NCBI GenBank assembly: GCA_012519705.1
Contig: JAAYPR010000045.1
Coordinates: 1 to 40,517 of the forward strand
DNA length: 40,517 nt
Direction: 5' to 3'
Source: Campylobacteraceae bacterium
Lineage (GTDB): Bacteria > Campylobacterota > Campylobacteria > Campylobacterales > Campylobacteraceae
The notes under the pieces were generated by a model. It searched no databases. It was not told where the DNA came from and worked only from the letters and a program-made list of their open reading frames with translations. A program made the translations under genes and the position numbers. Below are positions 12,372-37,488 of this stretch, piece by piece (the first letter of the stretch is position 1; each line of letters starts with the position of its first letter).

Positions 12372-15296
12372 ATGAGTAATATAGGAAGAAGATCTTTCCT
12401 TAAGCTTTCAGCTCTTGGTATGGGTGCTGCTAGTGCTGGAGTAACTTCAGCGTTTGGCAAAAACGACACACTAAGAGAAGCGACAAGCGATGAGGTTAAG
12501 AATCCATTTCCAAACTCTGTTATGAAAAGAACAGTTTGTTCGATTTGTTCGGCAGGCTGTGGTATCGTAGCAGAAGTGGACGAGGCGTCAAATACATGGA
12601 TAAGACAAGATATGGCTATAGATCACCCGATCAGCCAAGGAAGTCACTGTTCAAAAGGTATCGATCAAATCGACTTAACAAAGTCAAAAATGAGACTTAA
12701 ATATCCACTTAAAAAAGTAGGTGGTAAATGGGAAAGAATTAGCTGGGAAACAGCTGTTGAAGAAATCGGTAATAAAATGCTTGAAATCAGAGCAGAAGAT
12801 GGACCAGACTCAATCGAGTTTTTAGGTTCAGCGAAGTTTTCTAACGAACAAGCATATTACTTTAGAAAGTTTGCAGCATTTTGGGGAACTAACAACATAG
12901 ACCACGTTGCAAGAATTTGACATAGCGCTTCAGTTGCCGGTGCGGCAAATACCTGGGGTTATGGTGCTATGACAAACCACTTTGGTGACGTTGTTGGAAA
13001 CTCAAAGATGATGATGGTCGTCGGAGCAAACCCAGCAGTGGCAAACCCAGTAGGTGGAATGAAACATATCCTTCAAGCAAAAGACAGAAACAACGCAACA
13101 CTTGTTGTTGTTGACCCTGTTTATACAAGAACAGCAGCAAAAGCTGACATGTTTATTAGAATTAGACCTGGAACAGACATCGCGTTCTTCTACGGCGTTT
13201 TACATCAAATTTTCAAAAACGGCTGGGAAGATAAAGAGATGATAAGAACCAGATCATACGGAATAGAAGAAATTAGAAAAGAGGCTCTTAACTGGACACC
13301 AGAAGAGACTGCTAACGTTACAGGATGTAAACCAGAAGAAGTAGTTCAGTTTGCTAAAATGTATGCAACTACTAAACCAGCGACACTTTTCTGGTCACTA
13401 GGTATCACTCAGCACTCAGTTGGTAGTGCAAACACAAGAATTTTACCTATCCTACAACTAGTTTTAGGAAATATCGGTAAAGTCGGTGCTGGATGTAACA
13501 TCATCAGAGGTCACGATAACGTTCAAGGTGCAACAGATATGGGCTGTTTGGCTGATACTCTGCCAGGATACTACGGTTTAGGTGATGGAACTTGGAAATA
13601 CTACTGTAAAGGTTGGGGTGTAAACTATGATGACTTCATCAAAAGATTTGCAGTTTCAACTAAAGAAAAAAGAGCAAAAACAGGTGAGCCTGTAAAAAAT
13701 ACAGTGTTTAATGAGTATTTCTATCATGACCCAGCAAACCCAGAAGATAGAAACTGGAGAAATGAAAAAGGTTACTCACTTGCTAAATGGTGGCAAGGTG
13801 TTTTAAAAGAAGAAAACACATTCTCAAGTGGAAACTTAAGAGCTGTTTGGGTTCAAGGAACGGGAATTACCTCTATGGCTCATACAACGAAAATTGCTGA
13901 AGCTGTAGATAAAGTAGACTTGATGGTCATAGCTGAACCATTCCTAAACGAGATAGGAATTCTAACAGACAGACCTGATGGAATTTACGTACTTCCTGTA
14001 TCAACTCAGTTTGAAAGCGAAGGACATATCCACGCTACAAACAGAGCTGCTCAGTGGAGAACTCAAGTTATAAAACCTATCTATGAAAGTAAACAAGACC
14101 ATGAAGTAATGTTTATGTTTGCTAAGAAATTTGGGTTTTATGATGAGTACGTAAAAGGTATGATGATGGACGTTGTTGATGGCGAGTTAAAACAAGTTAA
14201 AAACGAGTTTAAATGGCCAGAAGATGCAACAAACGAAGTCTTTAGAAACCTACAAAGTATTGGAATTTCTGGAAGAACTGCTGAGAGAATCAAAAAACAT
14301 CAACAAAACTGGCATAACTTTGACCCAGATACACAGATGGGAAGAGGTCCGGTTGAGGGCGAATACTTTGGTCTTCCATGGCCATGTTGGGACAAAGAAC
14401 ACCCTGGAACGCCGATTCTTTACGACGTATCAAAACCTTACGCTAAAGGTGGTTCAGGATTTAGAAATAGATTTGGACTTGAGCACAACGGCGTTAGTCA
14501 GTTAGCTGATGAGAGCATAAGCTTACCAGGATCAAAAATCAAAGGTGGACACCCAGAGATTACAAAAGCTAATATCGAACAAGTTTTAGGCATAACTTTA
14601 ACTGAGAGAGAAAAAGCGATAATGGGCGATCACTGGAGTAGAGACCATAGTGGAACAATTCTAAAAAGATGTAGAGAAGCTGGAGTTTGTCCTTACGGAA
14701 ACGCAAGAGCAAGAGCTATTGTTTGGGAGTTTATAGATCAAATTCCAAAACATAGAGAACCACTTCACTCACCAAGATGGGATTTAGTACAAAAATATCC
14801 AGCTATTGATGATCAAGAGAGAAACTTCCGTGTTTCAACTAGATTTATCAGTGAACAAACTGAAAAAGACTGGAGTAAAGAGTTCCCGACAATTGTATCT
14901 TCACTTAGACTTGTAAACCTAAGTGGTGCTGGTATGATTGAGAGAACTAGTAAGTATCTTGCGGCTATCACGCCTGAGATGTTTGCTCATGTTAACCCGC
15001 AATTAGCGGCTAAATATGGCATCAAAGATAGAGATATGATGTGGATACACGCACCACAAGGAACGAAGATCAAAGTTAAGTGTTACTACTCAGAGTCAGT
15101 TACACCTGATAGAATTTGTCTTCCATATCACTTCGCTGGTATTATGCAAGGTGTGGATATAAGTGATAGATATCCAGAAGGAGCTAAACCTTACACCATA
15201 GGTGAGAGCTCGAATACCATTACCAACTACGGATTTGACCCAGTTACTCAAATAGCAGAGTATAACGCGGGGCTATGTAGATTAGAAAAAGCATAA
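12372..15296 (+). CDS. fdhA: Formate dehydrogenase large subunit, selenocysteine-containing (UGA at 12918-12920)
   Basis: This catalytic molybdopterin subunit oxidises formate to CO2 in the periplasm. The full product is 974 residues when the in-frame TGA at codon 183 is read as selenocysteine; a naive translation splits it into 182 and ~775 residues. It has a Tat signal (GRRSFLKLSALGMGAA), a 4Fe-4S site C56/C59/C63/C93 followed by the conserved K95, then VARI-Sec-HSASVAGAANTW and GAMTNHFGD. The Sec-His pair and GAMTNH match FdhN/FdhF-type enzymes. A SECIS-like hairpin follows the UGA. Downstream features include QGATDMGCLADTLPGY and the C-terminal domain with GESSNTITNYGFDP. It sits 11 bp after the small Tat protein and 10 bp before fdhB (AAGGAG). 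selA and selB lie nearby on the other strand. Confidence 0.97.
12918..12948 (+). promoter_or_regulatory. UGA selenocysteine codon and SECIS hairpin in fdhA
   Basis: TGA (12918-12920) is followed after 18 nt by a hairpin with stem TTGCC (12934-12938) / GGCAA (12944-12948) and loop GGTGC, so the apical GGU motif expected by SelB is present. In the E. coli fdhF SECIS, as I recall it, the GGU also lies 18 nt after UGA. The element is inside the coding region, as in other bacteria. Confidence 0.88.
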
Positions 15297-15306
15297 GGAG
15301 TAAGTT

Positions 15307-15873
15307 ATGGCAAGGTTAAAATTTTTCGTAGATAATGACAGATGTATAGCGTGTTATGGTTGCCAAGTAGCTTGTTCTTCTGCACATGAGACTCCGATTG
15401 GTATTAATAGAAGAAGAGTTCTTATCCTAAATGAGGGAGTTCCTGGCAAAGAAGTTTCAACAACTATCGCTTGTCAGCACTGTACAGATGCACCATGTGC
15501 ACAAGTTTGTCCGGTTCAATGCTTCTATGTAAGAGAAGATGGAGTTGTGCTTCATGATAAAAAGACCTGTATAGGTTGTGGATACTGCTTATATGCATGT
15601 CCGTTTGGAGCTCCACAATTCCCAAGAGATGGTGCATTTGGCATCAAAGGTGAAATGGATAAATGTACACTATGTGCTGGCGGTCCAGAAGAGACAAACT
15701 CAGAAGCTGAGAGACATCTATATGGACAAAATAGAATCGCAGAGGGTAAAATCCCAATGTGTGCGGCGATTTGTTGTACAAACGCTCTTTTAGTAGGCGA
15801 TGCTACAGAAGTATCAGAAGTTTACAGAAGAAGAGTTACTCATAGAAACGCAGTTGCTAAAATGCCACTGTAG
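15307..15873 (+). CDS. fdhB: Formate dehydrogenase iron-sulfur subunit
   Basis: This 188-residue ferredoxin subunit carries electrons from FdhA to the membrane cytochrome b. Four cysteine groups are seen: CIACYGCQVAC, CQHCTDAPCAQVCP, CIGCGYCLYACP, and CTLC with MCAAICCTNAL. This is the four-[4Fe-4S] pattern of the FdhB/HybA/PsrB family. It has no signal peptide, consistent with hitch-hiking export with the Tat substrate FdhA. The C-terminal membrane helix of E. coli FdnH is absent. The gene ends the operon: a strong hairpin begins 11 bp after the stop, and fdhC/fdhD do not follow as they do in C. jejuni. Confidence 0.93.
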   Translation: MARLKFFVDNDRCIACYGCQVACSSAHETPIGINRRRVLILNEGVPGKEVSTTIACQHCTDAPCAQVCPVQCFYVREDGVVLHDKKTCIGCGYCLYACPFGAPQFPRDGAFGIKGEMDKCTLCAGGPEETNSEAERHLYGQNRIAEGKIPMCAAICCTNALLVGDATEVSEVYRRRVTHRNAVAKMPL

Positions 15874-19126: not shown

Positions 19127-20650
19127 TTACTTAAAATTCTCATTTAAAAGCATCTTCGCTCTTACTTTTTTATACTCATCAGAAGTTAGTTTTTGAATTT
19201 GCTCTTTTGTTAAATGAGAGCCTTTTAAAATCCGCTTACCGTTAGCGAAATTTACCTTTGACAGCTCGTGACACTCTTCGCAAGGTTTTGCAACCCTGCC
19301 AGTAGTATGTGGGCTAAATGGGATAAATGCTCCAAACTCACCACTCTCATCCCCGCTCATGTCGTTGAAAATCATCTCTTTAAAGCTGTTTTTATAAGAG
19401 AGTCTATACTCAAAAAACGGTCTTAAAATGCTAACTTGCCCGTTTTCATCATTTCCTAAATAGAGCCTTTCCCACCGTCTGTATTTCCAGCCCATATACC
19501 AAACTCCCTCTTTTAAAGCCCCATCTAGATAGTCATACATAACGGGCTTTGTAGCGTTGTTTTCTAATGCTAAGTTTAAAAACCTCTCCAAATATCCATC
19601 GCCTTGTAGAGTTAGTTTTCTCCACTGCTCGTAGTTTGGCGTATCATCTCTAAGAAGTGAGAGTTCGTGGTTGCTCATCTGCCATGATGAGTGACAACTT
19701 GAACAGCTTAAATTTGAGTGATAAGAGGCGTGGGCATATTTGAAATTTAGGCTTTTTTTAGGTTCTTTATCTAAAATTTTATTCACATTAGAACTCTCGT
19801 TTAAATTTACAGCTAAATCTCCTAAGCTTTTTACATGGCAACTAACACAACTTGGTTTTTGAGAACCCATCACGCCATTATGGCAGTCTATGCAGTTCAT
19901 GCCAGCACTATGATGGACATCGCTACTTAAATGGTGAAAATCAAGCCCAAAAATTTGAGGCGGATATTTCCCATCTAGAGTTAATGGAGCTCTATAGCTA
20001 TCCTCAAAATCTTTTGGGAAAAGCCCTAAAAAGTCAGTTCCTACAAACTCTTTGTTGTGGCATGAGAGACACATGTTCATCTTTGGTTTAGATAGGGTAT
20101 GGTTTTTGGCAAAGGGCTTTTTGTTTCTCATAGTTTTATCACTCCCACGGTAGAGCCCATCACTTCTATACTCAGCGTGGCACGCCATACAGCCCTTGCC
20201 ATGATGCATCCCAGTACTGTAGTTTATGCTATTTTCTGTGTGACAGGAAAGGCATTTTCGTCTTAAGAGATCAGTTACTAAATGCTCTTTTGTCTCAATC
20301 ACTTCAGGGACTTGGGGCAAAGTTTGGATAGTGAAGTTTCTATCTAGCCCAAAGGATTTAAAGATTAGGTTTATCTCGTTTTGATGAGTGTAGTGGTTTG
20401 AGTTTCTAAATTTATCAATCTCATCTTTATGGCACTCCCCACAAAACCCATCTACAAATTTATCGCTTGCTGGGTGGGTTATGATATCATCGTGAGTGTA
20501 GTGCTCTCTATCTCTTTTTAAAACATGGCACTCCACACAGCTAAAGTTGTGATTTACACTATCAAAGCTCTCAACATTGTGACACTCCACACACTCGCTA
20601 GCAAAAACAGAGCTAATTAATAGAAAAATTATAAAGATTATTTTAGGCAT
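19127..20650 (-). CDS. Decaheme periplasmic cytochrome c
   Basis: The 507-residue exported protein has ten CXXCH heme-binding motifs, in order CVECH, CVECH, CGECH, CLSCH, CMACH, CLSCH, CIDCH, CVSCH, CSSCH and CEECH. A signal peptide opens it (MPKIIFIIFLLISSVFA). Two motifs in the first 45 residues are followed by a heme-rich middle and a ~170-residue heme-poor stretch (WRKLTLQGDGYLERF...). The last heme is introduced by FSPHTTGRVAKPCEECH. That block has a counterpart (PHTTGKSKECAECH) in the 12-heme protein, and DFHHLSSDVHH/NCIDCH corresponds to its DYHHTN/ECIDCH, so the two are paralogues. It is the last gene of the ten-gene operon and overlaps the previous gene by 13 bp. No homologue of known function was recognised; it probably moves electrons from the Rieske/cytochrome b module. 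Confidence 0.85.
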   Translation of the reverse strand: MPKIIFIIFLLISSVFASECVECHNVESFDSVNHNFSCVECHVLKRDREHYTHDDIITHPASDKFVDGFCGECHKDEIDKFRNSNHYTHQNEINLIFKSFGLDRNFTIQTLPQVPEVIETKEHLVTDLLRRKCLSCHTENSINYSTGMHHGKGCMACHAEYRSDGLYRGSDKTMRNKKPFAKNHTLSKPKMNMCLSCHNKEFVGTDFLGLFPKDFEDSYRAPLTLDGKYPPQIFGLDFHHLSSDVHHSAGMNCIDCHNGVMGSQKPSCVSCHVKSLGDLAVNLNESSNVNKILDKEPKKSLNFKYAHASYHSNLSCSSCHSSWQMSNHELSLLRDDTPNYEQWRKLTLQGDGYLERFLNLALENNATKPVMYDYLDGALKEGVWYMGWKYRRWERLYLGNDENGQVSILRPFFEYRLSYKNSFKEMIFNDMSGDESGEFGAFIPFSPHTTGRVAKPCEECHELSKVNFANGKRILKGSHLTKEQIQKLTSDEYKKVRAKMLLNENFK

Positions 20651-22410
20651 GGCGTTAGTCCTAGTTCAAATTTCTCTTTTGAAGCGTTGTAGTCAAGATA
20701 GATTTTATCATCCCAGTTTCTATGGCAGATGATGCATTTGTAAGCATCAGTAATTTTATAAATTTCATCTTTGTTAAACGCTCTTGCTAAGTCTCTTGAG
20801 GTGGTTTGGAACTGCTCTCCGCTAGGCGAGACAAAAGCATCTATCGGGTAAGAAAATGGCTGTCCGCTTTTTACAGAGTCATAGTAAGGCGTGAAGTTTA
20901 AAACCCCATCTTTATAGTCAAGTAGCCCACGCCCAAACCCAAGAGTAGCGGGGTTAAAGTGACACTCTGCGCACTCTTTAGATTTGCCTGTAGTGTGTGG
21001 TTCCCACCCAGCCATCGCCATAGCGTGGAAATTTGCTACTTCATCATCTTCAAAGATAGTAGCTATAACTTGACATCCTGGGGCAAAAGGCATAACTTTG
21101 CCGTTGTATCCAACTCCAAGCGACATATCTTCATAGCGTAAAAAGCTTCTTAACTCTAGCCAACTACCCTGTGTCATCTCATCTTTTACCCAGTCAAACT
21201 GAGTGCCTTTGTCAAAATACACTTCATGACAGCCATAGCAACTTGGCACCCACTGGGCGTGACAAGCCGAGCAGTCTAAATTCGCATGAATTTCCCCGCT
21301 ATGGTAAGGCTCATCGCTCATCTTAAAAAAGTCTACAAACCTACCATCTTTTTTTCTATAGAGTCTAAAGCTTTCGTTATCATCATTTTTTTTGAGATTA
21401 TAAAGTGGGGCATTTTTGCGTCTAGTATAGGCTACTTCGTCAGAGTGTGGGATAAAGCCGTTTAAATCAGTTAGTTTTATAGCTAACTCATCAGCCTTTT
21501 TAAACTCTGGGTCGTGGCAATCAACACAGCTAATATCCACAGCATCTTCCATGTGCCCATGCCTAAATCCATCTCCCATAATGCCCATGGTTGTGTGACA
21601 GTCGATACACTCAAGCCCTAAATTTGTGTGGTGGTAGTCGGCTGGAAGTTCGTAGAAAAAGCGAATTTTATCAATCCTGTTTGATAAATTCCCATCTTTA
21701 AAAGGTGTGCCGTATCCTTCACTTTCAAATTTACCAAAATAGCTAAGTCCGATTCTATTTGAGCGGTTATGACATTTTAGGCAGGTGTCGCTTTTGATGT
21801 TTGTAGTAAAAGTTGAGTGAGTTGTTCGGTTGCCCTCTCTTAATCCTATGGTGTCTAAGCCGTTATCTTCGGCTCTATGGCAGTTTGCACATCCTCCACC
21901 TTTTTTCATAGCTGGGTCAAAAAAGGAAGACTCACTTTGATTTATATGGCAACTTGCACACCCTTTATCAACGTGGGAATTTGTGATTTCTATCATCTTA
22001 TCTTTGCTTAAATTTGTAGTTGATTTCTCAACCCACTGTTCATGCATAACATCGCGAATGCCTTTTTGAGTCTGCATAATGCTCTGGCTAACTCTTAAAA
22101 GCTCTGTCTCGTGGCACTCTTTACAAAAAATTTGAGCGTGATGTAGGTAGGATGGATTTACAACCATATTTTCATGAGCTAGAGTTTCGTTGCTTTCAAG
22201 CGGGTTTCCACCGTGACAGCTCACACAGCCAAAAATTTCAACCGGATGAGAGTTGCTTAATGAGCCATAACCCGCATGACACTCTAGACAGCTCTCAACT
22301 GGTTTTTTGTTAGCAAGTTCGGTTTGGCTTAGCTCGTTGTATAAAATAAATAAAATTATAAATAAAAAAGAGATAGACGCTAAAACTCTATATAGTGTAG
22401 AAATACGCAT
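20638..22410 (-). CDS. Dodecaheme cytochrome c, N-terminally anchored
   Basis: The 590-residue protein has twelve CXXCH motifs: CLECH, CVSCH, CKECH, CASCH, CANCH, CLKCH, CIDCH, CVDCH, CSACH, CYGCH, CAECH and CIICH. The N-terminal hydrophobic segment (YRVLASISFLFIILFILY) lacks an obvious cleavage site and may anchor it in the inner membrane facing the periplasm. Ten hemes lie before residue ~400, then a 90-residue gap, then two isolated hemes near the C-terminus. Many free His residues (YHHTN, HGHMED, YHSGEIH) could be distal ligands. It follows the cytochrome b gene with a 23-bp overlap and precedes the decaheme gene with a 13-bp overlap. The likely role is electron acceptor for the bc-like module in place of cytochrome c1, or a terminal reductase. 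This is inferred from position. Confidence 0.85.
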   Translation of the reverse strand: MRISTLYRVLASISFLFIILFILYNELSQTELANKKPVESCLECHAGYGSLSNSHPVEIFGCVSCHGGNPLESNETLAHENMVVNPSYLHHAQIFCKECHETELLRVSQSIMQTQKGIRDVMHEQWVEKSTTNLSKDKMIEITNSHVDKGCASCHINQSESSFFDPAMKKGGGCANCHRAEDNGLDTIGLREGNRTTHSTFTTNIKSDTCLKCHNRSNRIGLSYFGKFESEGYGTPFKDGNLSNRIDKIRFFYELPADYHHTNLGLECIDCHTTMGIMGDGFRHGHMEDAVDISCVDCHDPEFKKADELAIKLTDLNGFIPHSDEVAYTRRKNAPLYNLKKNDDNESFRLYRKKDGRFVDFFKMSDEPYHSGEIHANLDCSACHAQWVPSCYGCHEVYFDKGTQFDWVKDEMTQGSWLELRSFLRYEDMSLGVGYNGKVMPFAPGCQVIATIFEDDEVANFHAMAMAGWEPHTTGKSKECAECHFNPATLGFGRGLLDYKDGVLNFTPYYDSVKSGQPFSYPIDAFVSPSGEQFQTTSRDLARAFNKDEIYKITDAYKCIICHRNWDDKIYLDYNASKEKFELGLTPCLK

Positions 22411-23197
22411 ATAAAACAGTCCATAAAACGATGAGTAGAAGTATTAAGTTATAAAAAACTCTATTTTTTATAAAACAAATCACACTTAGAAGCACAAAAG
22501 GCGTGGCCAAAAAACAAACTACGATGATAGAGTTTACACCTTTTATAAGTAAATTCTCCCCGCCTAAGAAAAACCATGGACCACTTACATTTTCATCCAT
22601 GATTAGCGGGTTTAAATCAGGTGGCATAGAGATAAAACTTAACACCACCAAGGTTAGCCCAAGGCCAACGATAAAATACTTTGTAAAAACTCTTTTAGAG
22701 TGAGCTTTTAGAAAATAGATTAAAATTATAGGAAAGATTATAGTGTGAAGTATAAAAAACCGCCAAAAGAACTGGTTAAAGTCTTTAAATAAAGAGATGA
22801 AGTTTTCTAAAATAGGGGTGTTTAAAATAAGAGCAAAAGCTACTTGTGCAGCTGACTCGGCGTTTAAATCGCCTTTTAAAACATATCCGCTAAACATCAG
22901 CACAAGAACCGCGATAAAAGCCACAACTCCGCTTAAGTAAGCAAATTTAGAGATGTTTTTATTACTTTTTCTAACTAGTTCAACTACTATGTGAAATAGA
23001 GTGAAAATTAAAAAAAGCTCTCCGCTAAAATAGTGAAGCTTTCTAAAAAAAACAGCGTAAGGGATAAATTTAAAATTTGCAATACTCTCATAAGGCTGGC
23101 TTGGATAGTAGACAAAAAGTAGAACTATCCCGCTTAGTAAGCAGACTAACATAAGACCGACTGTTATCCATGAGAGCAAAAAAGAGAGCTGTTTCAA
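22388..23197 (-). CDS. Diheme cytochrome b of a Rieske/cytochrome b complex
   Basis: The 269-residue integral membrane protein has about seven hydrophobic helices. Four heme-ligand histidines are present in the bc1/b6 arrangement: H55 and H69 (14 apart, helix B) and H151 and H166 (15 apart, helix D, the spacing of cytochrome b6). Next come a fifth helix, MPPDLNPL, and SGPWFFLGGENLL. This is the position where the quinol-oxidation motif PEWY sits in cytochrome bc, but here it reads GPWF, lacking the glutamate. Two helices follow, so the protein is b6 plus a shortened subunit-IV part. It overlaps the Rieske gene by 4 bp. It is thus the membrane core of a quinol:cytochrome oxidoreductase-like complex linked to the two multiheme cytochromes rather than to cytochrome c1. 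Confidence 0.85.
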   Translation of the reverse strand: MKQLSFLLSWITVGLMLVCLLSGIVLLFVYYPSQPYESIANFKFIPYAVFFRKLHYFSGELFLIFTLFHIVVELVRKSNKNISKFAYLSGVVAFIAVLVLMFSGYVLKGDLNAESAAQVAFALILNTPILENFISLFKDFNQFFWRFFILHTIIFPIILIYFLKAHSKRVFTKYFIVGLGLTLVVLSFISMPPDLNPLIMDENVSGPWFFLGGENLLIKGVNSIIVVCFLATPFVLLSVICFIKNRVFYNLILLLIVLWTVLYAYFYTI

Positions 23198-23625
23198 AGT
23201 GAAATTTCCATTTCGTTGTTATTTATTTTTATGTTTGCGACGTAGAGATTTTCTTTAGCTGGACCTTTTAGGACCTTACCATCTAAATCAAACTCGCTTT
23301 TGTGACACGGACAAGCAAACAAGCCTTTTAATGCGTCAAATTTAAGTTCACATCCAAGATGAGTGCAGCTTCTTGAAAAAGCTTTGTAGCCATCTTTTGT
23401 TTTGATTATAAAAAACCCCGGAATTTCTGTAACTTCATAAGTTAAATCAGAGATAAAAATCTTAGCTTTAGTAAAACTTTTATCCCCAGAAACAACAAGC
23501 CTTGAGGCTGGATATATTAAAGCTCCAGCCCCAAGCCAAGGAAGAAAATCCAAAGATTTTTTAATAAATCTTCTTCTTTTAACATCCTTCAAATTGTGCC
23601 GCTCCTGCTGCTGGTTTAGGACCAT
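23194..23625 (-). CDS. Rieske iron-sulfur protein
   Basis: This 2Fe-2S subunit would accept electrons from quinol in a bc-like complex. It has a Tat-type N-terminus (KDVKRRRFIKKSLDFLPWLGAGALIYP), expected for Rieske proteins. It also has both Rieske boxes: CTHLGC (ligands C87 and H89, C92 for the disulfide) and CPCHKSEFD (ligands C105 and H108, C107 for the disulfide). At ~143 residues it is compact. The ATG at 23625 lies 47 bp inside the preceding gene. An in-frame TTG at 23592 (GGAG about 8 nt upstream) would give a shorter, more usual Tat n-region and may be the true start. It overlaps cytochrome b by 4 bp. Confidence 0.88.
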   Translation of the reverse strand: MVLNQQQERHNLKDVKRRRFIKKSLDFLPWLGAGALIYPASRLVVSGDKSFTKAKIFISDLTYEVTEIPGFFIIKTKDGYKAFSRSCTHLGCELKFDALKGLFACPCHKSEFDLDGKVLKGPAKENLYVANIKINNNEMEISL

Positions 23626-23920
23626 CTGCTGCTTTTGACTTCTCTAATGCAGTTCCAAAGTCTAAGATATCTCCCTCATCAGCGATGTGTTGGATGATAT
23701 CATCATAGTTTGCCCATGCTAGTTTATCCCAAGCGTTTGCTTGGATTGCTTTTTGTGCATAAACTTTAGCTAGTGGGAAATTTCTTTTATTCACCTCTTC
23801 GCGTGAGAGGTCGATATACTTTTGCATCTCAGCTTTGTTCATGACATAGTCTTGTTGGTTTTCAGCATTTGCACTTGTTAAAAAACCGATAAAAACTAAA
23901 GGTAGTAAAATTTTTCTCAT
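23579..23920 (-). CDS. Small periplasmic helical (TPR-like) protein of unknown function
   Basis: I prefer ATG 23920 (AGGAG with 7-nt spacing) over ATG 23926, which would abut the SD; the product is 113 residues. It has a signal peptide (MRKILLPLVFIGFLTSANA), then a helical region with one TPR-like helix pair (EEVNKRNFPLAKVYAQKAI, then ANAWDKLAWANYDDII). An Ala/Pro-rich tail ends in a C-terminal cysteine (QFEGC). No heme or metal motif other than that Cys is present. It sits between the PsrB-type ferredoxin and the Rieske gene, exactly at the junction of the molybdoenzyme half and the bc-like half of the operon. A coupling or assembly role is conceivable but not shown. Confidence 0.7.
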   Translation of the reverse strand: MRKILLPLVFIGFLTSANAENQQDYVMNKAEMQKYIDLSREEVNKRNFPLAKVYAQKAIQANAWDKLAWANYDDIIQHIADEGDILDFGTALEKSKAADGPKPAAGAAQFEGC

Positions 23921-23929
23921 ATCCATCTC

Positions 23930-24529
23930 CTAGTTGTTCATAGTTACGTAGTAAATATTTGGTCTAAGACCACTACTTTCTTTTAAGCGTCTAACCGAAG
24001 TTGCCTCTCTTAAGATTTTAGAAACTGTGCTTTCAGGGTCGTTTAAGTCCCCAAAGTTTCTTGATCTTCCAACACAAGTTCTAACACATGCTGGTGCTAA
24101 GCCTTGCTCAAGTCTTGGTAGGCAGAATGTACACTTATCTACAGTTTTCTTCTCTTCGTCATAGTATCTTGCGTTATATGGACATGCAACCATGCACGCT
24201 TTACAGCCGATACAAAGAGCTGGGTCAACGAGTACTATGCCATCCTCTTCTCTTTTATAGCTTGACTCAGTTGGGCAAACAGAGACACATGGTGCATTTT
24301 CACAGTGGTTACATAGAACTGGTAAAAACCTTACAGTTGGTTTTCCATCGTTGTCTTTGTCTTCGATTTCAAAAACTTTAGTTCTATATGCCTCTTTTGA
24401 AGGTGACACATCCCACTCTGACTTACAAGCTACATAGCAAGCATCACAGCCTATACATCTGTCTGTGACTATTACCATAGCCCAGTTATGAACTTTTTCT
24501 GATTTGTTTTTGTTAATATCTAATGCCAT
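23930..24529 (-). CDS. PsrB/NrfC-type four-cluster ferredoxin subunit
   Basis: The 199-residue electron-transfer subunit of a CISM (complex iron-sulfur molybdoenzyme) family enzyme. Four cysteine groups are seen: CIGCDACYVAC, CNHCENAPCVSVCP, CIGCKACMVACP, and CTFC with ACVRTC, together binding four [4Fe-4S]. It has no signal peptide, so it would be exported with the Tat-tagged catalytic subunit. Its gene follows the catalytic gene by 9 bp. It would pass electrons between the NrfD-type membrane subunit and the molybdoenzyme. The C-terminal SGLRPNIYYVTMNN is typical of PsrB/PhsB/NrfC proteins. Confidence 0.9.
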   Translation of the reverse strand: MALDINKNKSEKVHNWAMVIVTDRCIGCDACYVACKSEWDVSPSKEAYRTKVFEIEDKDNDGKPTVRFLPVLCNHCENAPCVSVCPTESSYKREEDGIVLVDPALCIGCKACMVACPYNARYYDEEKKTVDKCTFCLPRLEQGLAPACVRTCVGRSRNFGDLNDPESTVSKILREATSVRRLKESSGLRPNIYYVTMNN

Positions 24530-24538
24530 CTTCTTCTC

Positions 24539-26794
24539 CTACGCCTTTTTTATGGTAACAAAGCCATTATTATGGGCACTACATCCACTTAGTGGGTCTA
24601 CGTCGTTGCTACAGAAAAACGAGTCACTTATACCTTTTTTATACGCTATTGTCATATCTTTACTGATATGTCCAAAACCGTGGTGAATAAATAGAGTGTC
24701 TTTTATGATTCTATCAGTTATTTTGATATTTTGCGGCTCTGATGTGTAGCCTGTAACGGTGTTTGTAACTATTACTTTATCACCTTTTTTAAGACCTACT
24801 TTTTTAGCATCTTCTGGGTTTATCCAGATAGGTGAGTCATCTTCTAGCTCCATTAAAATCCAGTTATTTTGCGTTCTAGCGTGAGCGTGAGCTGGTCCTC
24901 TACCAAAAATCAGCCTAAACTCTCCATCTTTTGGTTGTGGAACTGGCACATATGTAGGCATTGGAGCACATACATCACCATACTGTTTATGCATCTCCTC
25001 GGCTTGCGGGGCATATAGCTGAATTTTGCCTGTTGGAGTTGGGAAGAACATCTTTTTACCACTTGAGTAAGGAAACGGAACTGTATCTTCATGGACTAAT
25101 ACCCCGTCTTTTTCCAATGTCTCAACTTGGTCTTTTGAAAGCCTTGCTTTTAGAAGTACCATATCATCCTTTGGTGAGTTTGTAAAATACTCTGTATAGC
25201 CAAATTTACTCATAATGCCATAACACATTTCTTGAATGTGCTTTGTGTCATAAAGTGGTTTAATAGCAGCTTGTCTAAATGTCACAAACGGTTTTTCATC
25301 AGCTTGGATAAACGGCCCATCATCTTTTTCTAGATATGTTGATTCAGGTAAAACTACGTCTGCGTAGTATGCTGAGTCGTTCATCTGAGTATCTATAGCG
25401 AGTATAAAGTCAACCTTTTTCATCGCTTCAAAAAGCTTGCCCGTTTCAGTAGATGTGCTGGTTATCGGGTTTGTTGCATAGAGTAACCACGCTTTTATAG
25501 GGTATGGTTTTTCTTCTAATGTTGCCTTATACACGCCATTTGTTAAACCTAAGTTTGTAGGAGTGTGTGGATAAGTTGTGCCTGCACCATCAGCTCTTTT
25601 TGCTGTTACTGGTTTAATTGGCTCGCCATCCGGCATCTTAATAGGGAATCTTGTATTTTCCCAAATTCCACCAACACTTCCATAACTTCCCATTAGAGCA
25701 TTGATTATCGCCATTGCTCTAGCTGATTGAGAGTCGTTTCCATATCTTGCATTTCTTCTTGGAGCTATGACAACACAGTGTGGTGCTGCTTTTGCAAGTT
25801 CCCATGCGACATTCTCGATATCTTTAGCCGAAATTCCACACTCTTTCTCAGCCCACTCAGGAGTGTATTTTTGAACGTGTGCTTTTAGTTCGTTATATCC
25901 GTAGCAGTATTTTTGAACATAGTCAAAATTTGCTAAGTTATCTCTCATGATAACATGGATTATAGCTAAACTCATTGCTAAGTCAGTTCCTGGTTTTATC
26001 TGAAGCCATCTGTGAACGTTTGAAGCACTCTCGCTTAGTCTTGGGTCTACATAGGTTACTTTACAGCCTCTTGAAATTCCCTCTATAAAATCTCTTGCCT
26101 CTCTGACCTGAATAGCACCTGACATGTTTCTACCAAATACAAGCATATATTTAGAGTTTTTCATATCATAGCGTTCGTGCCCGCCGATACCGCCGCCACC
26201 AAATGTTAGTGAGTAGCCGATTTCTCTTGAACCACGACACTCTGAAAATGATGAAACCGTTAAGTTCGGGCTTCCCAAAATTTTAATCATATCATTAAAA
26301 TAGCTTGCACTGCTTCCGTGTGAAAATGCTGCTATCGTTTGTGCTCCGTATTGTTCAATTAACGGTGCAAGTTTATCATGGATATATTGATAAGCTTCAT
26401 CCCATGAAGCTTTTCTCCATTTCCCTTCGCCCCTTTCTCCAACTCTAATTAGTGGAGATTTTATCCTATCTGGATCATAAGTAGATGCAATGCCAGCGTT
26501 TCCTTTAGCACACAAAGTTCCGTAGTTGTTTGGGTTGTGGATATTTCCTTCAAGTTTTTTTACAACACCATCTTTTGTGTAAACATCAACCCCGCATCCC
26601 CAGAAGCACATTTCACAAACGTTTGTAGTTTTAACTCCTGCATCATAGTGCATAAGCTCTTCCATAGCTTTGCTAAGTTTGTGTTCTTTTGCATCAAGTG
26701 GTAAAGGAAGACCTTTAATTCCAGCAGTTGCTGCTACCGCTGTAGCACCGCTTATCTTTAAAAATCCACGGCGTGTTACTTTCATATCTTTCAT
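24539..26794 (-). CDS. Molybdopterin oxidoreductase catalytic subunit, polysulfide/thiosulfate reductase (PsrA/PhsA) type
   Basis: The 751-residue periplasmic molybdoenzyme has a Tat signal (TRRGFLKISGATAVAATAG) and a 4Fe-4S site at C60, C63, C67 and C95 with CAKG after the last. In FSECRGSREIGYSLTFG the cysteine C186 sits where the molybdenum ligand is found in Psr/Phs enzymes. Later come VFGRNMSGAIQVREARDF, a bis-MGD binding stretch, and near the C-terminus FRLIFGRGPAHAHARTQNN. Length agrees with PsrA/PhsA (~750-765). Adjacent PsrB and NrfD-type subunits make it a three-subunit membrane complex, and the rhodanese suggests a sulfur substrate (polysulfide or thiosulfate). Arsenate, tetrathionate or selenate reductases share this fold, so the substrate is uncertain. 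ATG 26794 has AAGGAGG upstream and overlaps the preceding stop as TAATG. Confidence 0.85.
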   Translation of the reverse strand: MKDMKVTRRGFLKISGATAVAATAGIKGLPLPLDAKEHKLSKAMEELMHYDAGVKTTNVCEMCFWGCGVDVYTKDGVVKKLEGNIHNPNNYGTLCAKGNAGIASTYDPDRIKSPLIRVGERGEGKWRKASWDEAYQYIHDKLAPLIEQYGAQTIAAFSHGSSASYFNDMIKILGSPNLTVSSFSECRGSREIGYSLTFGGGGIGGHERYDMKNSKYMLVFGRNMSGAIQVREARDFIEGISRGCKVTYVDPRLSESASNVHRWLQIKPGTDLAMSLAIIHVIMRDNLANFDYVQKYCYGYNELKAHVQKYTPEWAEKECGISAKDIENVAWELAKAAPHCVVIAPRRNARYGNDSQSARAMAIINALMGSYGSVGGIWENTRFPIKMPDGEPIKPVTAKRADGAGTTYPHTPTNLGLTNGVYKATLEEKPYPIKAWLLYATNPITSTSTETGKLFEAMKKVDFILAIDTQMNDSAYYADVVLPESTYLEKDDGPFIQADEKPFVTFRQAAIKPLYDTKHIQEMCYGIMSKFGYTEYFTNSPKDDMVLLKARLSKDQVETLEKDGVLVHEDTVPFPYSSGKKMFFPTPTGKIQLYAPQAEEMHKQYGDVCAPMPTYVPVPQPKDGEFRLIFGRGPAHAHARTQNNWILMELEDDSPIWINPEDAKKVGLKKGDKVIVTNTVTGYTSEPQNIKITDRIIKDTLFIHHGFGHISKDMTIAYKKGISDSFFCSNDVDPLSGCSAHNNGFVTIKKA

Positions 26795-27930
26795 TATTTA
26801 TCCTCCTTGCCAAGGTTTAAAACAATATAACCAATTTCATAAAGTAGCATAGCAACCCCAAAAGATGAGATAAATATACTTATTTCAGCTAAGCTCGGAG
26901 TATACTCTACCAACTCTATAACTGGTAAAAACTCAGACTCTACTCTTATAAGCTGACCACCGACAACTCCGTCATACACTGTAAAAAATACCCCTATAAT
27001 CGCACATATCCCAGCTACTGCAACTAAAGTTAGGTTTTTAAATTTAGATGCTATTAATAGCGTTATTGGAAGCACTATTCCTACAAAAATTTGAAAGAAG
27101 TAGAAATTAAACGAAAGTGGTCCGTTAGTTAGCATCTTAATATTTTCTGATAGATAGCTACCTGCTGTATATGATGAGATAACTACAGTCCAAGCATGAA
27201 CAAACGCTATTGCGATTAGACAAAATAGCATATAAGTAGCAAGAGCTTTAAGTGTCTTTTGATTTACCTCTTTTGCTCTAAATCTCATAAATACAGTTAG
27301 TAAACTAGCACCACTTAAAAGTGCTCCTAAAACAAATGAAATTGTAAATTGAGCTGTGTTCCAAAGTGGTCTAGCAGCGTTTACAGCAAATACCATTGAT
27401 AAAGTAGAAAACGCTACTATACCCATGATGAACGCAACTATACTAGCCCAAAACGAAGCTCTTTCCCCACCTTTAAACAGTAGCCAAAGCTCTAGGATAA
27501 GAAGTGGTGTTTCTATGATGTAGAACGTACACATCCACCAAATAGGAGACTCAATTTGAAAATTTATATAGTATCTTACAAATCTTAAAACTTGAAGCTC
27601 AAATGGTCCTCCAAGCTCCCAAAAGATTGTCCAAAACGCAGCTATTAAAAATGTCAGTGCCATTAAAGCAACACATTTTGATCTATACTCAAAAACTTCA
27701 AATTTAAATACGTGAACAAGTGCCGCTAAGGTTGATAAGCCAACACTAATCCCAACAAAAAAAGCATATCCAAGAAGAAGTAGACCTAGAGGCAACTCTC
27801 TTGAAACAGCGTAACTTGACTCTTGACCATGAAAAAATACCATGCCTATACCATAAAGCCCTACTGAAAATACCAGTAGTGAAATACCTAGGTTAAAAGC
27901 AGTGTTTTTTTTAGATGATAAAGTTTGCAT
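26794..27930 (-). CDS. NrfD/PsrC-type quinone-interacting membrane subunit
   Basis: The 378-residue integral membrane protein has about nine hydrophobic helices. Landmarks of the NrfD/PsrC family are the opening YAVSRELPLGLLLLGYAFFVG, FWELGGPFELQVLRFVRYY and FQIESPIWWMCTFYIIETP. In PsrC this subunit exchanges electrons with menaquinol or its methyl derivative and anchors PsrAB on the periplasmic face. Its stop overlaps the start of the catalytic gene by 1 bp (TAATG), and its own start directly follows the TorD-like gene. It gives the operon a second quinone site besides the cytochrome b. Confidence 0.88.
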   Translation of the reverse strand: MQTLSSKKNTAFNLGISLLVFSVGLYGIGMVFFHGQESSYAVSRELPLGLLLLGYAFFVGISVGLSTLAALVHVFKFEVFEYRSKCVALMALTFLIAAFWTIFWELGGPFELQVLRFVRYYINFQIESPIWWMCTFYIIETPLLILELWLLFKGGERASFWASIVAFIMGIVAFSTLSMVFAVNAARPLWNTAQFTISFVLGALLSGASLLTVFMRFRAKEVNQKTLKALATYMLFCLIAIAFVHAWTVVISSYTAGSYLSENIKMLTNGPLSFNFYFFQIFVGIVLPITLLIASKFKNLTLVAVAGICAIIGVFFTVYDGVVGGQLIRVESEFLPVIELVEYTPSLAEISIFISSFGVAMLLYEIGYIVLNLGKEDK

Positions 27931-28425
27931 TTATACCTCATTTTCTCTTATTAAAAGATAACAAATTTGAGAAATTTCAGCAAAGCATTTAATCGGAACT
28001 GACTTTTCCAAAGCTTTACTAAAATCATCCAACCAATAAAGCCACTCTTTAAATTTAGCAAACTCACTAGTTTTACCATTTTCTAGGAGTATTGCACAAA
28101 AAGAGAGCATTTTGCTTATATAATCAGGTGGTCCAAAATCTTGATTTTCAAAACCACATGACTCATAAAAGTTTTTAACCTCTACAGAGGTGTTTGACAT
28201 CATCCTTCCATCTATCCAATAAGATGCAACCGGAACGATGCCAAACTTGCTAGAGTTATGTTCAAAGTAATTGATATAAATTTCCCTAGCCTCATCTAAA
28301 GTTTGGCTAGGGATGGTTATTTTATTGCCAACTAATCCGTTAAGTAACTCTAGTTTTTTAAACCAGTTTTCATCAGGATATAAAAAAATATCTGCACTTA
28401 AATCAAATATATCAACTCTTTTCAT
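27931..28425 (-). CDS. TorD-family chaperone for the PsrA-type enzyme
   Basis: The 164-residue helical cytoplasmic protein directly abuts the membrane subunit gene. TorD-type features are an N-terminal LSADIFLYPDENWFKKLELL, the core EIYINYFEHNSSKFGIVPVASYW (in TorD the equivalent carries the Tat-peptide contact), and FGPPDYISKMLSFCAILLE with a conserved acidic/Pro pattern ('PD(H/Y)'). It would bind the Tat signal of the molybdoenzyme and assist cofactor insertion. The window thus has two separate TorD-like proteins, one per molybdoenzyme. Confidence 0.8.
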   Translation of the reverse strand: MKRVDIFDLSADIFLYPDENWFKKLELLNGLVGNKITIPSQTLDEAREIYINYFEHNSSKFGIVPVASYWIDGRMMSNTSVEVKNFYESCGFENQDFGPPDYISKMLSFCAILLENGKTSEFAKFKEWLYWLDDFSKALEKSVPIKCFAEISQICYLLIRENEV

Positions 28426-28440
28426 ATCCTAAATCTCTCC

Positions 28441-29364
28441 TTACTGAGCTGGTGCAACTTCTGGCTCGCTTTTTAGAACCTCTCTTTTTGGTAAGCGTGA
28501 GTATTCAAACATAGAACCATCATAAACTGTAACATTTTCAGTTCCTGCGGTATACTTTGACATAAACCAACCGCCAGTTGCGAAAAATCCTGCGTTACAG
28601 TACCAAATAGTAGGTTTTGTAACATCTCCGCCAGCTGAATTGATAAGATTTACAACACTGCTTTTATCTGTTTTCATATAGAAAATTCCATCTTTTTTCT
28701 CTACAAATTTACCAATAAATACGCTGTGTGCATCTCTAATGTGACCATTTTTAGCCGCGTTTGAGTGAGCTGTTTCACCCTTGAAGTGTGAGTCAGATCT
28801 ACCATCCATTAATATCCAATCCCCAGTAACAACAGCGTTGTCTATATCATAAACTGTTGCTACAAGATCAGAGTTTACTTCTGTGATTTTAAACTCTGAT
28901 TTTGCAGGTTTTTTAGCATTTGGAGCAGTTTTTCCACCATCTTTAATCCAAGCTGCATAACCACCATTTAAAATAGCTGTATTTTTTAATCCATAAACTT
29001 CACTTACATAGACAGCTGAAGTTGTGCCTATGTAGTCAGTTGCACTTTTGTTTCCTTCAGAGTAGAAAACTATAGTTTTATCATCTGTGATACCGCTTTG
29101 TTGAATCAATCTTTCAAACTGGATAGGTGAAGCAACAAATCCTTTGATGTCAAATCTATACTCTCTAAAGTCATCTACATGCCAATCAATAGCACCTGGT
29201 ATAAAAGCACCGCCTTTATCGTCTCTTAAGTCAACTAAAACGAGATTTCTATCATCGATATTCTCTTTTAGCCACTTAGTGTCCACAATCTTATTCTCTG
29301 GCACATCTAGTGCAAAAGCACAGGCAACAATCGATGAAATTAATAAAATTTTTCTGTATAGCAT
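28441..29364 (-). CDS. Periplasmic two-domain rhodanese-like sulfurtransferase
   Basis: The 307-residue exported protein has a signal peptide (MLYRKILLISSIVACAFA) and two rhodanese domains. Domain 1 (about 25-145) has LVLVDLRDDKGGAFIPGAI, but the catalytic-loop position reads FYSEGNKSAT with Ser102 instead of Cys, so it is probably inactive. Domain 2 (about 165-295) has WILMDGRSDSHFKG and the loop IWYCNAGFFATGG with Cys256 as the sulfur carrier. The C-terminus is Glu/Pro/Ala-rich. It is the first gene of the ten-gene operon. In Wolinella a periplasmic sulfurtransferase (Sud) delivers polysulfide sulfur to PsrA; a similar role is inferred here from context. Confidence 0.87.
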   Translation of the reverse strand: MLYRKILLISSIVACAFALDVPENKIVDTKWLKENIDDRNLVLVDLRDDKGGAFIPGAIDWHVDDFREYRFDIKGFVASPIQFERLIQQSGITDDKTIVFYSEGNKSATDYIGTTSAVYVSEVYGLKNTAILNGGYAAWIKDGGKTAPNAKKPAKSEFKITEVNSDLVATVYDIDNAVVTGDWILMDGRSDSHFKGETAHSNAAKNGHIRDAHSVFIGKFVEKKDGIFYMKTDKSSVVNLINSAGGDVTKPTIWYCNAGFFATGGWFMSKYTAGTENVTVYDGSMFEYSRLPKREVLKSEPEVAPAQ

Positions 29365-29394: not shown

Positions 29395-29400
29395 ATTATA
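29395..29400 (-). promoter_or_regulatory. Probable -10 box of the ten-gene respiratory operon
   Basis: A perfect TATAAT on the minus strand (GATATAATATAG), about 31 bp before the rhodanese ATG, with AAGGAG (29371-29376) as ribosome site. T-rich sequence lies upstream, with no clear -35. No other convincing promoter was seen inside the operon, whose genes mostly overlap. Confidence 0.55.
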
Positions 29401-29530: not shown

Positions 29531-29561
29531 AAAAATCTAAAGGGAAATCTCCCTTCAGATT
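29531..29561 (-). terminator. Rho-independent terminator of the AsmA-like gene
   Basis: AATCT-A-AAGGGA (29534-29545) pairs with TCCCTT-C-AGATT (29550-29561), with one mismatch and a 4-nt loop. On the minus strand it is followed by TTTTTAT. It lies 11 bp past the stop of the 29573-32248 gene and isolates it from the operon beyond. Confidence 0.75.
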
Positions 29562-34671: not shown

Positions 34672-36063
34672 ATGAAAAAATTTGGTTTTATTTTACTGTT
34701 TTTAGTGAGTTTTTTAAATGCCAAAATTATCGGCTATGGAGACTTGGAAAGTTATGAACTAGTTTATAGAGATGGCTACGCGGTTGATAAAACTGGTAAA
34801 ACTATAGCAAAAGCTAAAAATTATGATCATATATCAGAGTTTCTAGACGGCATAGCTGTGGTAGAAATAGATGAAAAAAAGGGTCTTATCGATAGAAGTG
34901 GCAAGGTCATAGTTGAGCCTAAATTTACTTTTATAAGCCATTTTTCACAAGGGATAGCTTCTTTTCTTGAAAATAACAGATACGGTTACATAGACACAGA
35001 TGGGAAGATGATAGCTGAGGCTAAATTTGATGATGCTCATGCGTTTAGCGAGGATTTAGCTCTTGTGGTATTGAGCGGAAAATTTGGCTTTATAGATAAG
35101 AGTGGTAAATTTGCCATAGAGCCTATCTATGAGTTGGCAAGTAGTTTTTATAACGGTAGTTCGGTAGTTCAAGTGGGTGGCAAATTTGGAGCTATAGATA
35201 AAAATGGTAAGTTTATAGTGGGGTCAAAATTTGATGCTTTATCTGATTTTACTGGTGATTTAGCGAAAGTTGCAATGGATGGAAAATGGGGTTTTATAGA
35301 TAGAAGCGGTAAGTTTATGATAGAGCCTAAATATGATTATATACATGACTTATCAGAGGGTCTTTTTTCAGCTAGCTTGGGCGATAAATGGGGCTTTGTT
35401 GATATGAGTGGAGAGTTTGTGATAGAGCCTATTTTTGACTACGCTGATAGTTTTTATGATGGTTTGGCTAAAGTTGAGGTTGATGGCATATGGGGATTTA
35501 TAGATAAAAGTGGCAAGTTTGTTATAGAGCCTAAATTTAGTGATTTGTTTGAGTTTTATGACGGGCTTGCTTTTGCTAGTGTTGATAGTGGATATGGTTT
35601 TATAAACAAAAATGGAGAGTTTGTCATAGAGCCAAAATACGACTATGCATCTGAGTTTGTTGAAAATATAGTTGTGGTTGAAAAGAGTGGAAAGTATGGT
35701 TTTGTAGATAAGAGCGGTAGGGTTATATCGGAGCCGATATTTGATTTGGTTTACTCATGTGTGGGAGGCGTGGTTTTAGTAGAGCTAAACGGAAAAATGG
35801 GAGCTATGGACAAAGATGGAAATTTTATAGTTGAGCTTAAATTTGATAGTGTTTCTGAGTTAGCCGAAGATATGTTTGTGGTTGAGATAGATGGAAAATG
35901 GGGCTATTTAAGCAAGGATGGCAAATTTAACATAGAGCCTATTTTTGACTATGCAGGAAATTTTAGCAGTGGTAAAGCCATAGTTAAAATGGGCGATAAA
36001 TGGGGACTTGTAGATAAAAATGGCAGTGTTTCGTATGAGCTTTTTTATTTTGAAACAGAATAA
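34672..36063 (+). CDS. Secreted WG-repeat protein, copy 1
   Basis: The 463-residue exported protein has signal peptide MKKFGFILLFLVSFLNA and opens with KIIGYGDLESYELVYRDGYA. About 12 repeats of 34 residues then fill the rest. The repeat pattern is K-(F/W)-G-F-I-D-(K/R)-S-G-K-F-x-I-E-P-(K/I)-(F/Y)-D, then a hydrophobic/acidic linker ending D/E-G-L-A-x-V. This is the WG (KWG) repeat family, thought to form beta-rich, propeller- or solenoid-like surfaces. Units begin for example at KFGFIDKSG, KWGFIDRSG and KWGFVDMSG; unit 8 (GYGFINKNG) and unit 11 (KWGYLSKDG) deviate. There is no enzymatic motif and no membrane segment after the signal. The function is unknown; binding of a protein or carbohydrate surface is plausible. 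It is the first of three tandem paralogues, 10 bp before the second. Confidence 0.85.
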   Translation: MKKFGFILLFLVSFLNAKIIGYGDLESYELVYRDGYAVDKTGKTIAKAKNYDHISEFLDGIAVVEIDEKKGLIDRSGKVIVEPKFTFISHFSQGIASFLENNRYGYIDTDGKMIAEAKFDDAHAFSEDLALVVLSGKFGFIDKSGKFAIEPIYELASSFYNGSSVVQVGGKFGAIDKNGKFIVGSKFDALSDFTGDLAKVAMDGKWGFIDRSGKFMIEPKYDYIHDLSEGLFSASLGDKWGFVDMSGEFVIEPIFDYADSFYDGLAKVEVDGIWGFIDKSGKFVIEPKFSDLFEFYDGLAFASVDSGYGFINKNGEFVIEPKYDYASEFVENIVVVEKSGKYGFVDKSGRVISEPIFDLVYSCVGGVVLVELNGKMGAMDKDGNFIVELKFDSVSELAEDMFVVEIDGKWGYLSKDGKFNIEPIFDYAGNFSSGKAIVKMGDKWGLVDKNGSVSYELFYFETE

Positions 36064-36073
36064 AGGATAAAAG

Positions 36074-37474: not shown

Positions 37475-37488
37475 AAAAAGGATAAAAG

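Follow-up and report, generated by a model that had tools for sequence, protein, structure and literature searches.

Results

Gene content of the locus

The window, i.e. the whole stretch of 40,517 nucleotides that was analysed, contains ten ORFs on the minus strand between positions 19127 and 29364, with gaps of −47 to +15 bp according to the ORF list (Table 1). All ten tightly packed genes of the original prediction were thus found, each overlapping its neighbour or lying 0–15 bp from it. Pfam and NCBIfam agreed with the gene families first assigned, namely a rhodanese, a NarJ/TorD-type chaperone, an NrfD protein, a PhsA/PsrA-type molybdoenzyme, a four-cluster Fe-S subunit, a Rieske protein, a cytochrome b and two multiheme cytochromes; the small periplasmic protein has no match in either collection. 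The two multiheme cytochromes contain 12 and 10 CXXCH motifs, which gives the 22 hemes counted earlier, and the −10 box that had been proposed in front of the first gene is present as well. Other promoter or terminator matches within the region did not exceed the level in shuffled DNA, and the window has no Rfam match. From the layout of the sequence, the operon is likely transcribed as one unit.

Table 1. Features of the operon and its upstream flank
Feature	Coordinates	Strand	Basis
Rhodanese with tandem domains, 307 aa; the C-terminal domain holds the active Cys256	28441..29364	(-)	PF00581, MST model, ExtH-like
NarJ/TorD-type molybdoenzyme chaperone, 164 aa	27931..28425	(-)	PF02613
NrfD/PsrC-type membrane quinol subunit, 378 aa	26794..27930	(-)	PF03916
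PsrA/PhsA-type catalytic molybdoenzyme, 751 aa	24539..26794	(-)	Pfam/NCBIfam
PsrB-type four-cluster Fe-S subunit, 199 aa	23930..24529	(-)	PF13247 and others
Small periplasmic protein, 115 aa, signal peptide, ends FEGC; proposed sulfur carrier	23579..23926	(-)	Alignment, model
Codons of the small protein's last two residues, Gly114-Cys115	23582..23587	(-)	ORF end and conservation
Rieske 2Fe-2S protein, 143 aa, boxes CTHLGC and CPCHKS	23194..23625	(-)	PF00355, motif alignment
Diheme cytochrome b, 269 aa, ExtP-like	22388..23197	(-)	Pfam/NCBIfam, motif alignment
12-heme cytochrome c, 590 aa, ExtM family	20638..22410	(-)	NF040943, 275 bits
10-heme cytochrome c, 507 aa, ExtN-like position	19127..20650	(-)	NCBIfam, gene order
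TATAAT, likely −10 box of the operon	29395..29400	(-)	Sequence; first ATG about 30 bp downstream
Terminator-like stem, 12 pairs, then T-rich DNA; probably ends the upstream gene	29534..29561	(-)	Strong stem

Elsewhere in the window, the alpha subunit of a formate dehydrogenase is encoded on the plus strand (12372–15296) by two ORFs that are split by an in-frame TGA. When this codon is read as selenocysteine, a protein of 974 residues results, with Sec183 in the motif ARI-U-HS. The gene for the beta subunit follows at 15307–15873, and SelB and SelA genes (5687–8841, minus strand) are located near the selenocysteine formate dehydrogenase. This enzyme is a plausible electron donor system for the operon, but proximity alone proves nothing. 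Positions 34672–38880 on the plus strand hold three ORFs in tandem (463, 466 and 463 aa); the first and the third, which are those that were scanned, encode WG repeats.

Distribution and modular composition of the cluster

According to the original prediction, the PsrABC-type enzyme, the Rieske/cytochrome b pair and the multiheme cytochromes form one conserved unit, and the order of their genes does recur in other genomes, across Campylobacterales and Desulfurellales. Since the same order is seen in many other genomes, a chance adjacency of the ten genes is untenable and was rejected. A close PsrA (E below 1e-120) was detected in 11 of 249 Campylobacterales genomes, all 11 of which carry neighbouring parts of the cluster, in some cases cut by contig ends (G058, G097 and G028). 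This argues against a scenario in which either half occurs alone as a rule and their adjacency is specific to this strain. Gene order is the same as in the window in G223, G037 (where one gene is inserted between the cytochrome b and 12-heme genes), G058, G071 and G009; G109 has a divergent arrangement. Judging from these comparisons, the cluster is not a one-strain fusion.

The Rieske/cytochrome b pair, on the other hand, does not form the core of the unit. Two genomes of the window's genus (G122 and G209) possess everything except the Rieske and cytochrome b genes, and two rumen Campylobacter MAGs (L101 and L106) likewise combine Psr with both multiheme cytochromes in the absence of the pair. 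Therefore, the Rieske/cytochrome b pair is optional.

When named genomes were scanned with the alignment of 12-heme proteins, 50 loci were recovered; they belong to Campylobacterota (Desulfurellales among them), Desulfobacterota/Thermodesulfobacteriota, Myxococcota and WOR-3. The recurring core comprises a 12-heme and an 8- to 10-heme cytochrome, usually with a rhodanese. Three modules can be distinguished: module B (chaperone, NrfD, PsrA, PsrB, small protein), module C (Rieske and cytochrome b) and module D (two YeeE-type half transporters and a second small protein). The identity of the YeeE halves is supported by PF04143, and in each half a single cysteine is invariant (19/19 and 18/18). 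In a tally of 54 loci, which counts some genomes twice, B+C is the most frequent composition (17), followed by D alone (10), B alone (5), C alone (4), B+C+D (2) and C+D (1), and 15 loci have none of the three modules within the fetched DNA. The 12-heme tree groups the window with the two rumen MAGs and Sulfurospirillum UBA6810. Outside Campylobacterota, three loci (L126, L117 and L109) encode Rieske, cytochrome b and multiheme cytochromes and have no Psr genes in the fetched DNA.

A distinct PsrA clade

The window PsrA has a Tat signal (RRGFLK), one 4Fe-4S site and, at the position of the Mo ligand, Cys186, which is kept in 26/26 sequences. Its score on the PhsA model is 527 bits, under the cut-off of 694, and the nearest solved structure by sequence is 2vpw, the PsrABC of Thermus. 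The PsrA proteins of the cluster are 54–61% identical to that of the window, whereas all other Psr/Phs sequences in the sample share only about 31–39%. In the phylogenetic tree, which has some long branches, the cluster PsrAs including the Desulfurellales members form one supported clade, adjoining the PsrAs of L172 and L173, two genomes from the Desulfobacterota side in which the gene neighbours an ext cluster. Wherever the region is complete, a member of this clade is accompanied by the gene for the small protein. The cluster PsrAs make up a separate clade that occurs solely in this setting.

The Rieske/cytochrome b pair

The window cytochrome b has all four heme histidines (His55/69 and His151/166), and its Qo motif reads GPWF instead of PEWY. 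The motif [GS]PWF takes the place of PEWY in 24/24 long-form relatives, while three control cytochromes b have PEWY; a normal bifurcating Qo site can therefore not be assumed. ExtP of the Geobacter type is short and lacks the segment with the Qo motif.

Conserved cysteines in the rhodanese and the 12-heme cytochrome

NCBIfam relates the 12-heme cytochrome to ExtM, the cytochrome b to ExtP and the rhodanese to ExtH, in all cases under the equivalog cut-offs. For ExtM (NF040943), the score of 275 bits compares with a cut-off of 800 bits, so that the protein is homologous but not an equivalog. A wider ExtM-related family of roughly 800 aa (L082:5576-8005 and L051-L068) is common in Campylobacterales in other settings. 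The 12-heme family possesses a non-heme cysteine, Cys446 in the sequence APGCQV, that is retained in 61/62 relatives, i.e. as strictly as the heme cysteines. No conserved non-heme cysteine is present in the 10-heme family, and eight of the ten hemes of this cytochrome are kept in 40/40 relatives. Cys256 of the rhodanese is conserved in 25/25 tandem relatives; the window rhodanese has no terminal cysteine. With a mean pLDDT of 42, the AlphaFold prediction for the 12-heme cytochrome is too poor to place Cys446 relative to a heme, and a sequence search of the PDB with the 12-heme profile returned no real relative.

A Gly-Cys tail on dissimilar proteins

The small periplasmic protein had been noted in the original prediction, but its Gly-Cys terminus and its probable mechanistic role were passed over. 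Cys115, its last residue, is the sole cysteine. The structural model comprises a confident three-helix core (residues 31–83) and a disordered tail of low confidence (residues 84–115). Weak fold matches of the core are TPR repeats, among them NrfG, a TPR protein of heme assembly in nitrite reductase. Each of the 31 homologues that are complete in the main set (19 beside Psr and 12 beside YeeE) terminates in Gly-Cys, and the only invariant columns of a 21-row alignment are Ala53, Ala60, Gly114 and Cys115. Three YeeE-linked small proteins (L192, L193 and L194) end in GCI, one residue past Gly-Cys. Among the other ORFs of at least 100 aa at the same loci, 2/581 end in Gly-Cys; both belong to L109 and are likely members. 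One is a YeeE half (L109:6610-7476) with a C-terminal linker ending in GDDEGC; the other, an adjoining separate protein of 154 aa, ends nearly alike.

The ending recurs in further proteins of related loci: ExtJ, confirmed by NF040942, ends in LQGC or MQGC, several ExtH rhodaneses in ext-type loci end in Gly-Cys after Gly-rich linkers, and so do Lys-rich small proteins beside Psr genes in the ext-type loci L173 and L174. No sequence similarity was detected between these Gly-Cys-ending proteins. Since none of 20 canonical Psr/Phs loci encodes a Gly-Cys-tailed protein, we rejected the tail as a general feature of Psr operons.

It is conceivable, though improbable, that the tail acts as a structural disulfide tether, as a metal ligand or as an adaptor for heme maturation that docks the protein on the cytochromes, and carries no sulfur. 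TPR-like cores usually bind proteins, NrfG is among the weak fold matches, and Cys446 of the 12-heme cytochrome could form a disulfide with the tail. However, the tail recurs on unlike proteins including a rhodanese and a sulfur transporter half, and it follows long flexible linkers, which suits a mobile arm more than a fixed tether. The small protein is likely the key to the mechanism.

Discussion

A model for the operon

Quite possibly, the operon serves the respiration of sulfane sulfur, be it polysulfide, elemental sulfur or a similar species, and acts on sulfur in protein-bound form. We infer the chemistry of the carrier, the substrate and the direction of electron flow as follows. The rhodanese would move sulfane sulfur onto the terminal cysteine of the 115-aa carrier, yielding a persulfide on a flexible arm. 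By extension from what is known of the enzyme family, the arm would present this persulfide to PsrA, which would release sulfide using menaquinol electrons delivered via PsrB and the NrfD subunit. The arm may also react with the 12-heme cytochrome at Cys446. Electrons of this cytochrome would pass via the 10-heme cytochrome and also, in those clusters that have it, via the Rieske/cytochrome b pair, giving a second quinone-linked route. For the cytochrome branch, the reductive direction is somewhat more likely.

Several lines of evidence speak for a carrier: the conserved gene order, the constant association of the PsrA clade with the carrier gene, and the strict conservation of the Gly-Cys ending in the homologues together with its absence from the canonical loci. 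In addition, the same ending is found on proteins as dissimilar as ExtJ, ExtH, the Lys-rich proteins and a YeeE half, the model combines a rigid core with a disordered tail, and the potential partners have invariant cysteines (Cys256 of the rhodanese, Cys446 of the 12-heme cytochrome and one per YeeE half). Sud/PsrABC and SoxYZ/SoxT provide precedents. On the other hand, a terminal cysteine could serve other roles, the three YeeE-linked members end in GCI rather than GC, and the 12-heme model, being so poor, does not set Cys446 beside a heme. Moreover, a Rieske centre is normally of high potential, which is awkward for the reduction of low-potential sulfur.

An oxidative or disproportionating function is an alternative. 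Here the 12-heme cytochrome would oxidise carrier-bound sulfane sulfur, with the 10-heme cytochrome and the Rieske/cytochrome b pair or further acceptors taking up the electrons, and another share of the sulfur would be reduced to sulfide by PsrABC. Ten YeeE loci without Psr retain the rhodanese, the carrier and both cytochromes, and thus the cytochromes work without the reductase; furthermore, relatives are found in lineages that are known to metabolise sulfur. We nevertheless consider this unlikely, as the formate dehydrogenase of the window, a likely donor, fits a reductive chain, and the known disproportionation markers YTD and MOLY do not match (PMC12998232). The YTD cluster is defined as YedE with TusA and DsrE (PMC12998232), none of which was found in the window operon by Pfam, and a YTD/MOLY disproportionation cluster was rejected on gene content.

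Returning to the sulfane sulfur model, we tentatively propose a new kind of periplasmic sulfur carrier, in which a flexible Gly-Cys tail would have arisen on several unlike proteins (a TPR-like protein, ExtJ, a rhodanese extension, a YeeE extension and a Lys-rich peptide) and would feed protein-bound persulfide to a dedicated PsrA clade as well as to the 12-heme Cys family. In that case, the Ext system of Geobacter might also be a carrier system for sulfur or other chalcogens. It is poorly understood how elemental sulfur and polysulfide reach periplasmic respiratory enzymes, and the function of the Ext operon, which is conserved across Geobacter species, is unsettled. A Gly-Cys carrier and an invariant cysteine in the 12-heme cytochrome would give both problems one testable chemistry. 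As the carriers are short and dissimilar, annotation pipelines miss this signature. Text searches of the literature outside subscription journals brought up no description of the cluster or of the Gly-Cys tail.

Comparison with known systems

The original prediction had likened the locus to the Cbc systems of Geobacter, in which a quinol module of the inner membrane is combined with cytochromes c. The window operon shares this combination. Because the NCBIfam matches are to ExtH, ExtM and ExtP, Cbc was set aside, and by sequence the closest system that we found appears to be Geobacter Ext.

In Geobacter, the operon encodes the rhodanese ExtH, the small protein ExtJ, ExtM with 12 hemes, ExtN with 10 hemes, the Rieske protein ExtO and the cytochrome b ExtP (PMC5877670). 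The window operon shares the ExtH/M/N/O/P part list of the G. sulfurreducens extHIJKLMNOPQS cluster and a small protein that ends in Gly-Cys. Owing to this correspondence of parts, the most fitting view of the operon is that of a Psr set attached to a core of the Ext type, rather than of a Cbc-type complex. In contrast to Ext, ExtI porin, ExtKL, ExtQ and ExtS are absent among its ten ORFs, PsrABC with its NrfD subunit and the chaperone is added, the small protein is unrelated in sequence to ExtJ apart from its ending, and the cytochrome b has a longer C-terminal part bearing [GS]PWF.

The ext genes of Geobacter are tied to the reduction of selenite/tellurite and Fe/Mn oxides, not to sulfur, which counts against the carrier model: loss of ExtI alters selenite/tellurite reduction, and extHIJKL affects the reduction of Fe/Mn oxides (PMC5877670, PMC6148476). 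The cytochromes and the Rieske/cytochrome b pair might accordingly deliver electrons from quinol to oxidised forms of selenium, tellurium or metals, with Psr as a separate enzyme in the same operon. Although ExtH/J/M/N/O/P are the closest characterised relatives, such a role seems rather doubtful, given the missing Ext components, the ExtM score far under the equivalog cut-off and the strict coupling to either the Psr clade or YeeE sulfur transporters, which points to sulfur.

The Rieske boxes and the four heme histidines are intact as in cytochrome bc1/b6f, from which the window pair differs by a short cytochrome b, by [GS]PWF in place of PEWY and by multiheme cytochromes as partners. With PsrABC/PhsABC of Wolinella, Thermus (2vpw) and Salmonella, the window enzyme has in common that the catalytic, Fe-S and NrfD subunits are encoded in one operon, as well as the Tat signal and the Mo-ligand cysteine. 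It differs in that its PsrA is at most about 39% identical to the other Psr/Phs proteins sampled and that the set is linked to a rhodanese, a Gly-Cys carrier candidate and two multiheme cytochromes.

SoxY has a flexible C-terminal arm with a Cys next to a Gly. The small protein likewise has a conserved cysteine in a flexible Gly-containing C-terminal arm, but it has TPR-like helices and the cysteine as its last residue, and neither a SoxZ partner nor other Sox genes are encoded beside it. SoxYZ is a periplasmic sulfur carrier that has been proposed to feed the YeeE-like SoxT (PMC11582611), and the Gly-Cys loci are similarly linked to YeeE-type transporters. A helper of PsrABC that binds sulfur in the periplasm is known from Wolinella, where Sud presents polysulfide to the enzyme (PMC2628731); in the window operon, by contrast, two separate proteins would divide this task, the rhodanese and the TPR-like protein that ends in a cysteine.
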